Source of the DNA: Thermus caldilimi
Lineage (GTDB): Bacteria; Deinococcota; Deinococci; Deinococcales; Thermaceae
DNA: 64,000 bases
Assembly: GCF_004684245.1 (NCBI RefSeq)
Contig: NZ_CP038452.1
Span: 1,350,796 to 1,414,795 of the forward strand
Direction: 5' to 3'
Shown: positions 16,114-22,619 of the stretch, piece after piece
Layout: every line of letters begins with the position of its first letter
How positions within the stretch are numbered: the stretch's first letter is position 1
Made by a program: the position numbers and the translations under genes
The notes under the pieces: generated by a model
What the model saw: only the letters and a program-made list of their open reading frames with translations
The model's database searches: none
What the model was told of the DNA's origin: nothing

Positions 16114-17176
<1,063 letters not shown>

Positions 17177-17288: not shown

Positions 17289-17317
17289 TTGACATTAGCT
17301 TTATCAAGCGATATGCT
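17289..17317 (+). promoter_or_regulatory. promoter of clpB, with inverted repeat
   Basis: TTGACA (17289-17294) and TATGCT (17312-17317) have 17 bases between them. A perfect inverted repeat, TCAAGC (17304-17309) and GCTTGA (17315-17320), overlaps the -10 box. The 165-base gap after dafA and this strong promoter mean clpB can be transcribed separately. The repeat resembles half-sites of the HspR operator (CTTGAGT) but in the opposite orientation. Confidence 0.7.
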
Positions 17318-17340: not shown

Positions 17341-19905
17341 ATGAACCTGGAACGCTGGACGCAAGCCGCCCGCGAAACCCTGGCCCAGGCGCAGGTCCTG
17401 GCCCGGCAGATGCGGCACCAAGCCATCGACCTGCCCCACCTTTGGGCGGTGCTCCTGCGGGATCCCTCCGGCCTGGCCTGGAGGCTTTTGGGAAAGGCTG
17501 GGGCCGATCCCAAAGCCCTGAAAGAGAGCCAAGAGAAGGAGCTGGCCCGCCTGCCCCGGGTGGAGGGGGCGGAGGGCGGGCAATACCTGACCCCCCGGCT
17601 CTCCGGAGCCTTTGGCCGGGCCGAGGCCCTCATGGAGGAGCTCAAAGACCGCTTCGTGGCCCTGGACACCCTGGTCCTGGCCCTGGCGGAGGCCACCCCC
17701 GGCCTCCCAGGGCTGGAAGCCTTGAAGAAGGCCCTGCAAGAACTAAGAGGAGGTAAGACCGTGCAGACGGAACACGCGGAAAGCACCTACAACGCCCTGG
17801 AGCAGTACGGCATCGACCTGACCCGGCTCGCCGCCGAGGGCAAGCTGGACCCGGTCATCGGCCGCGACGAGGAGATAAGGCGCACCATCCAGATCCTCCT
17901 CCGCCGCACCAAGAACAACCCCGTGCTCATCGGCGAGCCGGGGGTGGGCAAAACCGCCATCGTGGAGGGCCTGGCCCAACGCATCGTCAAGGGGGACGTG
18001 CCGGAGGGGTTGAAGGGCAAGCGCCTCATCTCCTTGCAGATGGGCTCCCTGCTGGCCGGAGCCAAGTACCGGGGGGAGTTTGAGGAGCGCCTGAAGGCGG
18101 TGATCGGGGAGGTGGTGGGAAGCCAAGGGGAGATCATCCTCTTCATCGACGAGCTCCACACCGTGGTGGGTGCGGGTAAAGCCGAAGGTGCGGTGGATGC
18201 GGGCAACATGCTGAAGCCCGCCCTGGCCCGGGGGGAGCTAAGGCTCATCGGGGCCACCACCCTGGACGAGTACCGGGAGATCGAGAAGGACCCTGCCTTG
18301 GAAAGGCGCTTCCAGCCCGTCTACGTGGACGAGCCCAGCGTGGAGGACACCATCTCCATCCTGCGGGGCATCAAGGAGAAGTACGAGGTGCACCACGGGG
18401 TGCGTATCTCCGACCCGGCCATCGTGGCGGCGGCAGTCCTCTCCCACCGCTACATCACGGAAAGGCGCCTCCCCGACAAGGCCATCGACCTCATCGATGA
18501 GGCGGCGGCCCGCCTGCGCATGGCCCTGGAAAGTGCCCCTGAGGAGATCGATACCCTGGAGCGCAAAAAGCTCCAGCTGGAGATTGAGCGTGAGGCCCTC
18601 AAGAAGGAGAAGGACCCGGACTCCCTGGAGCGCCTGAAGGCCATCGAAGGGGAGATCGCTACCCTCACCCAGGAGATCGAAAAGCTCAAAAGGGAGTGGG
18701 AGGCAGAGCGGGAGGTCCTGAAGCGGCTCCGCGAGGCCCAGCACCGCCTGGACGAGGTAAGGCGGCAGATCGAGCTGGCCGAACGCCAGTACGACCTGAA
18801 CCGGGCCGCGGAGCTCCGCTACGGGGAGCTTCCCCGCCTCGAGGCCGAGGTGGAGGCCCTCTCCGAAAGGCTCAAAAACGCCCGCTTCGTGCGCCTGGAG
18901 GTAACCGAGGAGGACATCGCCGAGATCGTCTCCCGCTGGACGGGGATCCCCGTCTCCAAGCTCCTGGAAGGGGAAAGGGAGAAGCTCTTACGGCTTGAGG
19001 ACGAGCTCCACAAGCGGGTGGTGGGGCAGGAGGAGGCCATCCGGGCCGTGGCCAACGCCATTCGCCGGGCCCGGGCGGGCCTCAAGGACCCGAACCGCCC
19101 CATCGGAAGCTTCCTCTTCCTGGGCCCCACGGGGGTAGGTAAGACCGAGCTGGCCAAGACCCTGGCCGCCACCCTCTTCGACACCGAGGAGGCCATGGTG
19201 CGCATCGACATGACGGAGTACATGGAGAAGCACGCCGTCTCCCGCCTCATCGGGGCCCCGCCCGGCTACGTGGGCTACGAGGAAGGTGGGCAGCTCACCG
19301 AGGCGGTGAGGCGGCGGCCCTACACGGTCATCCTCTTCGACGAGATCGAGAAGGCCCACCCCGACGTCTTCAACCTCCTCCTGCAGATCCTGGACGACGG
19401 CCGCCTCACCGACTCCCACGGGCGCACCGTGGACTTCCGCAACACGGTGATCATCCTCACCTCCAACCTGGGAAGCCCCCTGATCCTCGAGGGCATCCAG
19501 AAGGGCTGGCCCTACGAGCGCATCCGGGAGGAGGTCTTCACCGTGTTGCAACGGCACTTCCGCCCCGAGTTCCTGAACCGTCTGGACGAGATCGTGGTCT
19601 TTAGGCCCCTCACCCGGGAGCAGCTGCGGGAGATCGTGGAGATCCAGCTCCAAAGCCTCAGGGCCCGCTTGGCGGAAAAGCGTATCACCCTTACCCTCAC
19701 CGAGGCCGCCAAGGACTACCTGGCCGAGCGGGGCTATGACCCGGTCTTCGGGGCTAGGCCCCTGAAGCGGGTGATCTCCCGGGAGCTGGAAACTCCTCTG
19801 GCGGTGAAGATCCTGGCCGGGGAGGTCAAGGAGGGGGATGCCGTGGTGGTGGACGCTGGCCCCACGGGGCTGATCTTCCGCACCCCCGAGCGGGTAGAGG
19901 CCTGA
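17341..19905 (+). CDS. clpB: ATP-dependent disaggregase ClpB
   Basis: An 854-residue Hsp104-type AAA+ chaperone that rescues aggregated proteins with the DnaK system. It has an N-terminal Clp repeat domain (about 1-140), then NBD1 with Walker A GEPGVGKT (near 204) and Walker [12 protein letters not shown] charged coiled-coil middle domain (about 395-520) separates this from NBD2 with GPTGVGKT (near 600) and [11 protein letters not shown]. The C-terminal region [13 protein letters not shown] is the sensor-2 motif. The length matches the structurally characterised T. thermophilus ClpB. RBS GGAGG lies about 9 bases before the ATG. Confidence 0.97.
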
Positions 19906-19918
19906 GAAAGGAGGCGGC

Positions 19919-20308
19919 ATGAGCGTGGTGGAAGTCCTGCAAAAGGCCTACCAGGATGAGCTTCTGGATGCCCTGCGGGCGGAGCGGGCGGCGGAAAGGG
20001 TCCCCTACCCCCACATCCGGGCCCTCCTCCTGGAGGTGGCCCGTAGGGAGCGGGGCCACGCCGAGACCATCGCCGAGGCCCTCCGCCGCCTCGGGGCCTC
20101 CCTTCCCCCTACCCCCAAGGCGGAGGAAGAGGGCTGGGAAGCGCTGCTCCGCCTCCTTTCCGAGGAGGGGTTTGACCGAAGCTACTACCTGGAGAGCACC
20201 TTCCCTGACCCCGAACTGGAGCGTCTCTTCACCCGGCTGGGCCAGGAGGAAAGGCTCAACCAAGAAGCCGTGCGCAAAGCCGTGGCCCTTTTAGGAGGTG
20301 GCCTATGA
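19919..20308 (+). CDS. ferritin-like helical-bundle protein
   Basis: A 129-residue all-helical protein that starts 13 bases after clpB, behind a good ribosome-binding site (AAAGGAGGC). Helix 1 carries DELLDALRAERAA and helix 2 EVARRERGHAETIAEAL, an ExxH pattern typical of ferritin-like or rubrerythrin-like diiron carboxylate proteins. A third and fourth helix carry LGQEERLNQEAV. The full ligand set of a diiron centre is not evident, so it may be a degenerate member with a structural or protective role. Its place in a chaperone operon suggests a stress function (inference). Confidence 0.6.
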   Translation: MSVVEVLQKAYQDELLDALRAERAAERVPYPHIRALLLEVARRERGHAETIAEALRRLGASLPPTPKAEEEGWEALLRLLSEEGFDRSYYLESTFPDPELERLFTRLGQEERLNQEAVRKAVALLGGGL

Positions 20309-21489
20309 TCGGAAAGGAAGAAATCCGGCGCATCAAGGAAACCCTGGCTATCGCAGAGGGGCCGATCCTCTCCCTCTACCTGGACATCAACCCCGCCAAG
20401 CCGGAAAACGCCGGCAGGGCCTACGCCCTGAGGGCCAAGGACGCCATGAAGGCCCTGGGGGTGCCCCAGGACCTGCAGGATAAGGTCCTGGAAGTGTTGA
20501 AAAACCAGGTTCTGGAGGCCAAGACCGCCGTCTTCTTCGCCAAGGACAAGCTCTTTGAAACCCTCTTGCTCCAGGTGGAACTGCCCTTGGTCTCCAGCCT
20601 CAAGACCACCTTCTTGGGGGAAAAGGAAAGCCGCTTCCTCACGGACGGGGCCTTAGCCCACTACGGCGAACCCTTCCCCCTCCCCCTCATCTACGCCCTG
20701 GACGAGTACGAGCGCTATGGCGTGGTTTACTTAGACCAGGAGCGCTGGCGGGTGTTTGAAATCTTCCTGGGCGAGATTCAGGAAGTGGGGGATGCTTTCC
20801 TCGCTCTGGATACCGAGGCCTGGCGGCGGCTTTCCCTGGACGCCCCAGGGCGCCGCTTCAACCTGGCGGGTATCTCCCGGGGCGGGGCGGGACAGGACCT
20901 CTTCGCCAAGCGCCTGGCTGCCTGGGAGGAGCGCTTCTACAAGAACCTGGCCCACGAGCTGGAGAAGTTGACCCAGGAAAGGGGCTTCACCCGCCTGGTC
21001 CTCATGGGCCCCGAGGAGCACACCAAGCTTTTCCTGGGCTACCTGCCCAAGCGCCTCAAGGAAAAGCTGGTGGCCCTGCTTCCCTCCCTGCCCCACCCCG
21101 GGGCCAGCCCTGGCGAGGTGCTCAAGCGGCTGGAGCCTGTCCTGGAGGAGATAGAACGCAAGGGAGAGGTGGAGCTTCTCGAGAAGCTGGAGGAAGCCTA
21201 CCCCAAAGCGGTCTTCGGCCCCGAGGCGCTGGAGAGGGTGCAGGAGGGACGGGTGGAACTCTGGGTGCTTCCCTGGCACCTGGACCAGACCGCCTACGCC
21301 TGCGACGGGATCCTCTTCCCCGATGAGGCCCGGGCCCTGGCCCAGTGCCAAAACCCCGAGGCCAAGCCCCTGGCCGTGGTCCTGCCCGAGCTGGCCGCAG
21401 GGTATGCCGCCAAGCTGGAGTTCGTGCGGGGGGAAGCGGAGAAAGAACTTCTGGAGCGCGGGGGCATGGCCGCGCTCCTGAGGTGGTGA
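20305..21489 (+). CDS. baeRF/VLRF1-type release-factor-like protein
   Basis: A 394-residue protein with the overall plan of bacterial relatives of archaeo-eukaryotic release factor 1 (baeRF/VLRF1). It opens with a helix and strand, GPILSLYLDINPAK. Near residues 190-197 is a loop RGGAGQ that resembles the catalytic GGQ or GxxQ of eRF1 and Vms1/VLRF1, followed by a helix DLFAKRLAAWEERFYKNLA. A Rossmann-like region then reads FTRLVLMGPEEHTKLF, and the C-terminal part an L7Ae-like fold. By family knowledge such proteins may cleave peptidyl-tRNA on stalled ribosomes. The start overlaps the ferritin-like stop by 4 bases. Function is inferred. Confidence 0.65.
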   Translation: MIGKEEIRRIKETLAIAEGPILSLYLDINPAKPENAGRAYALRAKDAMKALGVPQDLQDKVLEVLKNQVLEAKTAVFFAKDKLFETLLLQVELPLVSSLKTTFLGEKESRFLTDGALAHYGEPFPLPLIYALDEYERYGVVYLDQERWRVFEIFLGEIQEVGDAFLALDTEAWRRLSLDAPGRRFNLAGISRGGAGQDLFAKRLAAWEERFYKNLAHELEKLTQERGFTRLVLMGPEEHTKLFLGYLPKRLKEKLVALLPSLPHPGASPGEVLKRLEPVLEEIERKGEVELLEKLEEAYPKAVFGPEALERVQEGRVELWVLPWHLDQTAYACDGILFPDEARALAQCQNPEAKPLAVVLPELAAGYAAKLEFVRGEAEKELLERGGMAALLRW

Positions 21490-21504
21490 GAGGAGGTGAG
21501 GAGA

Positions 21505-21921
21505 ATGGTGCGGTTTGATCCTTTTAGGGAGCTGGAGGAGTTGCAGGAGCGTTTGGCGCGGGCCTTCGGTGCCGCCCCGCAACAGGGGCCTCGGGTCTTC
21601 GCCCCCCCGGTGGACGTGATGGAGGACGCGGAGGGGCTCCACATCCTGGTCTACCTGCCTGGGGTGGAACCGGAGCGGGTGGAAGTGGTGGCGGAGGAAG
21701 GGGTGCTCTCGGTGAAAGCCGAACGTCCTTTTGAGAAGAAGGAGGGCGTGGTGTACCACCGCCTGGAAGGCTCCTACGGCACCTTCGCCCGCAGCTTCAA
21801 CGTGCCCAGCACCTTTGCCCTCTCCCGGGTGCAGGCCCGCTTCCGCCACGGGGTGCTCCACCTTCTGGTGCCCAAGGCCGAGGAAAGTAGGCCCAAGAGG
21901 ATCCAGGTGCAGGTGGAATAA
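21505..21921 (+). CDS. small heat-shock protein Hsp20 (first copy)
   Basis: A 138-residue alpha-crystallin-type holdase. The N-terminal arm starts MVRFDPFRELEELQERLARAF. The alpha-crystallin domain spans about residues 32-120, with VDVMEDAEGLHILVYLPGV and HRLEGSYGTFARSF (the GxFxRxF-like signature). A C-terminal tail RPKRIQVQVE ends with an IxV-like motif. I chose ATG at 21505, 8 bases after AGGAGG, rather than the GTG at 21496. It binds unfolding proteins during heat stress and hands them to DnaK/ClpB, encoded just upstream. Confidence 0.92.
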   Translation: MVRFDPFRELEELQERLARAFGAAPQQGPRVFAPPVDVMEDAEGLHILVYLPGVEPERVEVVAEEGVLSVKAERPFEKKEGVVYHRLEGSYGTFARSFNVPSTFALSRVQARFRHGVLHLLVPKAEESRPKRIQVQVE

Positions 21922-21932
21922 GGGGGTGAGGT

Positions 21933-22619
21933 ATGCGGCGGACCACGCGGTACATCCTGGCCACTTCCAACCCCATGGGCGACCTCGAGGCCCTGGAGAA
22001 GCTGGTGAAGCTGGCTCCGGAAACGGGGGCAGACGCCTTGGCCCTGGTGGGCAACCTCATGCCCAAGACGGCGAAAAGCCGCGACTACGCCGCCTTCTTC
22101 CGCATCCTTTCCGAGGCCCATCTGCCCACCGCCTACATCCCCGGGCCCCAGGACGCCCCCATCTGGGAATACCTCCGGGAGGCCGCCAACATCGAGCTGG
22201 TGCGACCCGATATGCGCAATGTCCACGAAACCTTCACCTTCTGGAAAGGGCCTTACCTGGTGGCCGGGATAGGCGGGGAGATCACCGATGACGGCGAGCC
22301 CGAGGAGCATGAAGCCCTGCACTACCCCGCCTGGGTAGCGGAGTACCACTTGAAAGCCCTTTGGGACCTTAAGGACTACCCCAAGATCTTCCTCTTCCAC
22401 ACCAACCCCCACCACAAGGGCCTGGGGGAGGGAGGCTCCCACGAGGTGGCCCACCTCATCAAGACCCATAACCCCCTCCTGGTGATCACCGCAGGCAGGG
22501 GCCAGAAGCACGAGATGCTGGGGGCAAGCTGGGTGGTGGTGCCGGGCGACCTCTCCGAGGGGGAGTACAGCCTCCTGGACCTGAGGGCAAGGAAGCTGGA
22601 AACCGGGAACGTGCGCTAA
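21933..22619 (+). CDS. calcineurin-fold metallophosphoesterase-like protein (TT1561 family)
   Basis: A 228-residue protein that I recognise as the orthologue of T. thermophilus TT1561, a calcineurin-like fold known from a structural-genomics structure. The metal-ligand motifs of active phosphoesterases are altered: TSNPMGDLEAL replaces the DxHG motif, VGNLMPK replaces GDxxD, and PGPQDAP replaces GNHE. One or two later histidines remain (FHTNPHHKG and TAGRGQKHE). It may therefore bind metal weakly or have another role. It sits between two Hsp20 genes in the stress operon, 11 bases after the first. Confidence 0.7.
   Translation: MRRTTRYILATSNPMGDLEALEKLVKLAPETGADALALVGNLMPKTAKSRDYAAFFRILSEAHLPTAYIPGPQDAPIWEYLREAANIELVRPDMRNVHETFTFWKGPYLVAGIGGEITDDGEPEEHEALHYPAWVAEYHLKALWDLKDYPKIFLFHTNPHHKGLGEGGSHEVAHLIKTHNPLLVITAGRGQKHEMLGASWVVVPGDLSEGEYSLLDLRARKLETGNVR

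Follow-up and report, generated by a model that had tools for sequence, protein, structure and literature searches.

A Balon-related protein of baeRF family 10 encoded in the clpB cluster of Thermus caldilimi

The clpB cluster and its upstream region

The window considered here is a stretch of 64,000 nucleotides from Thermus caldilimi (assembly GCF_004684245.1, contig NZ_CP038452.1), and all coordinates of its features refer to it. At 20305-21489 it contains a plus-strand open reading frame for a protein of 394 amino acids, here called P0001, with the string RGGAGQ at residues 192-197. The original prediction had picked out this frame and this string and had placed the gene among chaperone genes. 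Both the frame and the string are real, and clpB indeed lies upstream and an Hsp20 gene downstream. The features of the locus are as follows:

16940-17176, plus strand: 78-codon reading frame overlapping the end of dnaJ (read by translation)
17289-17317, plus strand: promoter-like TTGACA-N17-TATGCT upstream of clpB; the pattern holds in 17 of 18 distinct clpB upstream regions from Thermus and a single close relative
17341-19905, plus strand: clpB, first gene of a putative transcription unit (open reading frame; identity recognised from sequence)
19919-20308, plus strand: rubrerythrin/ferritin-like gene (PF02915, E 2.8e-7), whose last 4 bases are shared with the start of P0001
20305-21489, plus strand: P0001, baeRF family 10 / Balon-like protein, 394 residues (open reading frame; PF18854, 115.5 bits against a cut-off of 27.1)
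20389-20394, plus strand: codons of an NP pair, P0001 residues 29-30, a candidate counterpart of the decoding-centre HP motif of Balon
20683-21135, plus strand: stretch matched by PF18854 (middle domain), P0001 residues 127-277
20878-20895, plus strand: RGGAGQ codons, P0001 residues 192-197, of which R and GG are conserved while 195 and 197 vary
20896-20958, plus strand: P0001 residues 198-218 after the loop, with D198, R203, W207, R210 and F211 conserved
21496-21921, plus strand: Hsp20 gene, likely start ATG at 21505 (PF00011, E 1.4e-16)
21933-22619, plus strand: metallophosphoesterase gene (Metallophos_3; PF14582, E 1.1e-67), a downstream neighbour in Thermus loci too

Upstream of P0001 and on the same strand lie dnaK, grpE, dnaJ, the 78-codon reading frame, clpB and the ferritin-like gene; the first three and clpB were identified by recognising their protein sequences. 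The 78-codon reading frame occupies what we take to be the place of dafA. The ferritin-like frame follows clpB after 13 bases, and beyond the metallophosphoesterase gene a second Hsp20 gene and a DUF1931 gene are found.

In the spacer and -10 region of the promoter-like element, a conserved block, TATCAAGNGATATG, occurs in 9 of the 18 distinct upstream regions, and an exact palindrome TATCA-AG-TGATA precedes clpB in 5 of the 18, the window not being among these five. It is possible that the conserved block is an operator controlling clpB.

A family-10 match is present in the genome under study and in all 26 further genomes of the genus that were searched, and in each of these 27 Thermus genomes ClpB is encoded upstream of it on the same strand, so that the order clpB / ferritin-like / baeRF / hsp20 is a conserved Thermus cluster. 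No ClpB was found in the 13 loci examined from a related family, f4, some of which are short, and the link to clpB is thus mainly a trait of Thermus rather than of the whole family. What these loci do keep (some being short, and overlapping frames being skipped in the count) is a DUF1931 gene a few hundred bases downstream in at least 12 of 13, an Hsp20 gene directly downstream in at least 7 and a ferritin-like gene directly upstream in at least 6.

Two cases in Thermus deviate in the baeRF gene itself. In Thermus sp. JCM 17653 / G064 (L010 and L040, one species) it is split by frame changes, which may reflect sequencing error or gene decay. In G069 the baeRF gene (L061, 4859-5977) is alone in being strongly diverged, with 57% identity as compared with 96% for ClpB, 82% for the ferritin-like protein and 84% for Hsp20, which suggests local replacement or fast evolution.

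Family placement and nearest relatives

P0001 matches the Pfam model baeRF_family10 (PF18854) with an E-value of 3.1e-33 and is, by these sequence matches, a member of the aeRF1 superfamily and hence a bacterial cousin of eRF1. The same model is matched by 37 of 37 aligned homologues, and P0001 is the only family-10 match in its genome. Weaker matches to baeRF families 5, 12 and 2 and to Host_attach all exceed their own cut-offs. When a profile of the 37 homologues was compared with the PDB, the best solved relative was Balon MSMEG_1130 (8v9j, E 4.4e-21), with profile positions 9-386 of 386 aligned to residues 8-375 of the chain. The same profile matched Rv2629 (E 1.4e-7) and chains of eRF1 and aRF1 (E 1.3e-7 to 7e-4); a phmmer search of the homologue L080 against the PDB gave no match.

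The nearest NCBIfam model is likewise that of the MSMEG_1130 hibernation-factor family, which 34 of the 37 family members match at E 0.01 or better and of which P0001 is the sole match in its own genome at E 0.001 or better. The equivalog cut-off of this model is 480 bits and P0001 reaches 64.8, which makes it a distant relative of MSMEG_1130 and not that ortholog. PMC10901736 (2024) places Balon homologues in about 20% of bacteria, Thermus thermophilus included, and names DnaK, DnaJ and Hsp20 among the operon neighbours in the legend of its Fig. 2, where the label Dein-Therm is spelled out. Since the genome has no such gene besides P0001, the T. thermophilus homologue meant there is probably the ortholog of P0001. 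Among the titles and abstract starts listed for Balon, no title describes the Thermus protein itself.

The original prediction had assigned P0001 to the eRF1/Vms1/VLRF1 family by its motifs. The wider part of this assignment stands with the PF18854 match and the profile matches to eRF1 and aRF1, but Vms1 and VLRF1 are not the nearest kin. P0001 has no match to acVLRF1 (PF18859) up to E 1, a model that 4 of its 37 relatives match weakly, and no chain named Vms1/ANKZF1 or Pelota/Dom34 is among the best 60 of 73 PDB matches (weakest E 0.53). With no supporting match for P0001, its membership in Vms1/VLRF1 was dropped.

The same searches bear on whether P0001 could be a non-catalytic rescue factor of the Pelota/Dom34 kind, which would enter the A site of stalled ribosomes and promote their splitting or recycling rather than their storage. 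Pelota belongs to the same superfamily, a chaperone context suits the handling of stalled ribosomes, and PMC6514570 considers that baeRF proteins might relieve stalled ribosomes without catalysis, or inhibit or take apart ribosomes. We nevertheless regard this role as unlikely, since Pelota and Dom34 are missing by name from those best 60 matches, the bacterial relatives of known structure, MSMEG_1130 and Rv2629, are hibernation factors, and no GTPase was found among the five neighbouring genes searched.

An AlphaFold model of P0001 built from nine Thermus sequences has a mean pLDDT of 40.7 and a pTM of 0.33, and the fold assignment therefore depends on the sequence profiles. Residues 198-218 are probably the start of a helix; the low-confidence model places one at 195-226, which is to be read as a hint.

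The RGGAGQ loop and its register against eRF1

The string RGGAGQ had been read as a peptide-releasing loop of the GGQ/GxxQ kind. As a string it is little proof, because such patterns arise by chance: GxxQ occurred in 59% of 20,000 shuffles of P0001, which itself has three, and GGxxQ in 5.6% of the same number. More can be learned from homologues and from the register of the loop.

The conservation sample was drawn from a survey of 111 Deinococcota genomes, 82 of which gave 89 family-10 matches in all; the sub-threshold matches in G084 and G086 were excluded, and nine named Thermus loci were added. Six of the 99 reading frames recognised were set aside, namely two pieces each of L010 and L040, the partial L096, and L001, which duplicates the window. 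From the other 93, 84 distinct proteins were aligned, all of them from Deinococcota. A tree was calculated for 80 of these rows with the loop columns removed, L081 (Q at 197), L086, L088 and L094 being excluded. Searching genomes again around G083 led back to ones already in the sample; of the searches reaching beyond Deinococcota, a plasmid tblastn returned two Deinococcus records only and two viral scans none.

In the 84 rows, G193 is kept in 68 and G194 in 67, and the sites that follow the loop are still more constant, with D198 in 82, R203 in 81, F211 in 79, R210 in 78 and W207 in 77. Residue 197 is Q in 29, K in 22, T in 15, R in 7, M in 3, N in 3, S in 2, V in 2 and A in 1, whereas residue 195 is A in 47, S in 21, T in 9, M in 3 and P, G, F and W in one each, and never Q; GGQ is absent from all 84. 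On the tree, D198 and R203 show no changes, G193 one and G194 two, and R203, R210 and the GG pair are among the slowest sites. Site 197 shows 16 changes (median 13) and ranks 243rd of 394 in conservation. Thus, of a loop expected to be conserved among homologues, the GG pair is mostly kept and the glutamine is not. The partial L096, outside the alignment, has neither GG nor Q, and the frameshifted L010/L040 copy, also outside the 84, still reads RGGAGQ.

The glutamine is concentrated in the closest relatives: all 25 rows with more than 70% identity to P0001 have Q197, as do 4 of the remaining 59. In each of these 25 the W173-D198 loop is 26 residues long, whereas over the 84 rows its length ranges from 23 to 35 residues in 82 and is 13 and 15 in the other two. 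As evidence, retention among such similar proteins has limited weight. Among the 13 f4 genomes that carry the gene, residue 197 is R in 6, K in 4, Q in 2 and T in 1, and two f4 proteins that are 91% identical differ by R and K at this site. Within the genus itself, the G069 protein, 57% identical to P0001 and encoded in the same cluster, has M.

For the register, segments of human and S. pombe eRF1 were moved over 11 registers (191-201) of the family profile, without gaps and scoring residues from three after the glutamine onward, hence without GG and with compensating loop insertions outside the scope of the comparison. Placing the eRF1 glutamine on residue 195 gave about 0 bits, and the next best registers came to -21.5 (human) and -23.1 (S. 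pombe); with this glutamine on Q197 the scores were -52.3 and -53.4, respectively. The RAGQ loop of MSMEG_1130 also fits best at 195 (-1.7; next -24.7). These ungapped scores align the catalytic glutamine of eRF1 with A195 and put Q197 two residues further, an alignment to be taken with caution, as its best score is near zero in absolute terms. Compared with eRF1 and aRF1, P0001 is homologous over the middle and C-terminal parts with RGG in register, but the catalytic glutamine is replaced by A, S, T and others, and the NIKS string is missing from P0001 as judged by eye.

The reading of RGGAGQ as a peptide-releasing loop is therefore not upheld: its glutamine is not conserved outside the close relatives, and as the place of the eRF1 glutamine residue 195 outscores the next register by over 20 bits and Q197 by over 50. 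A GGQ-type catalytic loop was dropped as the leading reading on these two grounds. MSMEG_1130, a hibernation factor, has Q at the eRF1 place, so loop letters alone neither prove nor exclude activity.

It could still be argued that P0001 is a peptidyl-tRNA hydrolase and that in Thermus its GGAGQ works like the Vms1 GxxQ loop, releasing nascent chains when heat stalls ribosomes. Its residues G194-A-G-Q197 fit the GxuQ pattern given for VLRF-1 in PMC6514570 (2019), which also calls the family 10 glutamine well conserved and names the family as potentially active in hydrolysis; the fixed glutamine and loop length of the 25 close relatives point the same way. The genome has two RF-1-domain matches, RqcH and a single tmRNA match above the gathering score. 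Presumably the two RF-1-domain matches are RF1 and RF2, hence there would be no ArfB; with RqcH and the tmRNA match present, a further release factor could have a role. Against this stand the M of G069 in the same cluster, the mixture of residues in f4 where gene contexts mostly match, the register on A195 and the low rank of site 197, and we consider a hydrolase improbable. From conservation and register, P0001 is most likely not a hydrolase. Among family 10 proteins, the well-conserved glutamine proposed in PMC6514570 is not borne out in the Deinococcota sequences sampled, where it is present in 29 of 84 rows at 197 and in none at 195, although P0001 itself has Q at 197. Judged by title among the matches listed, that paper is alone on the subject of baeRF. 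Its activity prediction leans on a glutamine that is swapped for R, K, T or M in Deinococcota genes of similar context, and whether a family 10 baeRF cuts peptidyl-tRNA is now directly testable.

An intermediate case would be a Balon-like scaffold that secondarily gained a working release loop in Thermus (GGAGQ, with the glutamine two residues beyond the eRF1 place) and that both occupies and clears stalled ribosomes in a heat-linked manner. We think this quite improbable; if it were true, one residue of the loop would separate hydrolysing from storing members of the same family in different genera.

P0001 shares with Vms1/ANKZF1 and VLRF1 a GxxQ-type string, but the GxuQ-type glutamine of P0001 is not conserved among its homologues. 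Two Deinococcus plasmid homologues outside the 84 (L111, 3363-4166; L112, 3004-3849) are labelled 'VLRF1 family aeRF1-type release factor' in their records. By eye they read SGTDLF at the loop, and as both GG and glutamine are missing there, the label implies an activity that their sequence does not support.

A probable Balon-like role at the ribosome

We think that P0001 is probably an A-site binder of the Balon/baeRF kind, shaped like eRF1, which hibernates or shields ribosomes and does not hydrolyse peptidyl-tRNA. Ribosome binding, heat induction and a protective role are here inferred. P0001 would probably be made under heat stress. Its N-domain would sit at the decoding centre in the absence of mRNA, where NP at residues 29-30 may match the HP motif of Balon; its middle domain would bring the RGG loop and the helix with R203 and R210 up to the 23S rRNA close to the peptidyl-transferase centre; and its C-domain would point toward EF-Tu or the factor-binding site. 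In this way P0001 could fill the A site of ribosomes that are idle or stalled by heat, holding them inactive and shielded until the proteome has been restored by ClpB, DnaK and Hsp20. A transcription unit led by clpB fits such a heat-linked ribosome plug or shield.

The likeness to Balon (MSMEG_1130 and Rv2629; PMC10901736; 8v9j, 8v9k) lies in the nearly full-length profile match, the lack of GGQ, which that paper describes for MSMEG_1130 too, and the chaperone neighbours. The differences are a loop of the form R-GG-[mostly A/S/T]-x-x-D instead of RAGQ, the score well below the equivalog cut-off, and NP instead of HP at residues 29-30, if the two pairs are equivalent; in the 84 rows this pair is NP in 69 and HP in 2, and the profile alignment gives DP in MSMEG_1130. 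HPF is encoded elsewhere, the genome having a single HPF match, a frame of 186 residues away from P0001. The variable length of the W173-D198 loop was counted for the non-hydrolytic role, because PMC6514570 ties unconstrained loop length to families without the glutamine. Several points speak against a Balon-like role: Q197 and a loop of 26 residues are fixed in the close relatives, PMC6514570 regards the family 10 glutamine as well conserved, adjacency to ClpB is mainly a Thermus trait, and 64.8 bits are far from 480.

The free variation of residue 197 and of loop length could also be expected of an RNA-binding protein that belongs to the chaperone system, moonlights or works off the ribosome and no longer acts at the A site, and its flanking genes do encode chaperones, a ferritin-like protein and a phosphoesterase. 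The slow evolution of R203, R210 and the GG pair is what contact with rRNA would predict, and we judge this possibility very remote. If P0001 is instead a heat-linked relative of Balon, Thermus, a workhorse of ribosome structure determination, would offer a thermostable ribosome-protection system tied to the ClpB/DnaK/Hsp20 cluster.

Some relatives carry the gene twice. Two family-10 genes are present in seven genomes of the same family (G025, G027, G029, G035, G038, G041 and G043). In the six of these that belong to g4, one gene has an RAAA-type loop and the other a loop of the RGGSGKD type; in five of the six a CBS-domain gene lies upstream of the RGGSGKD copy.
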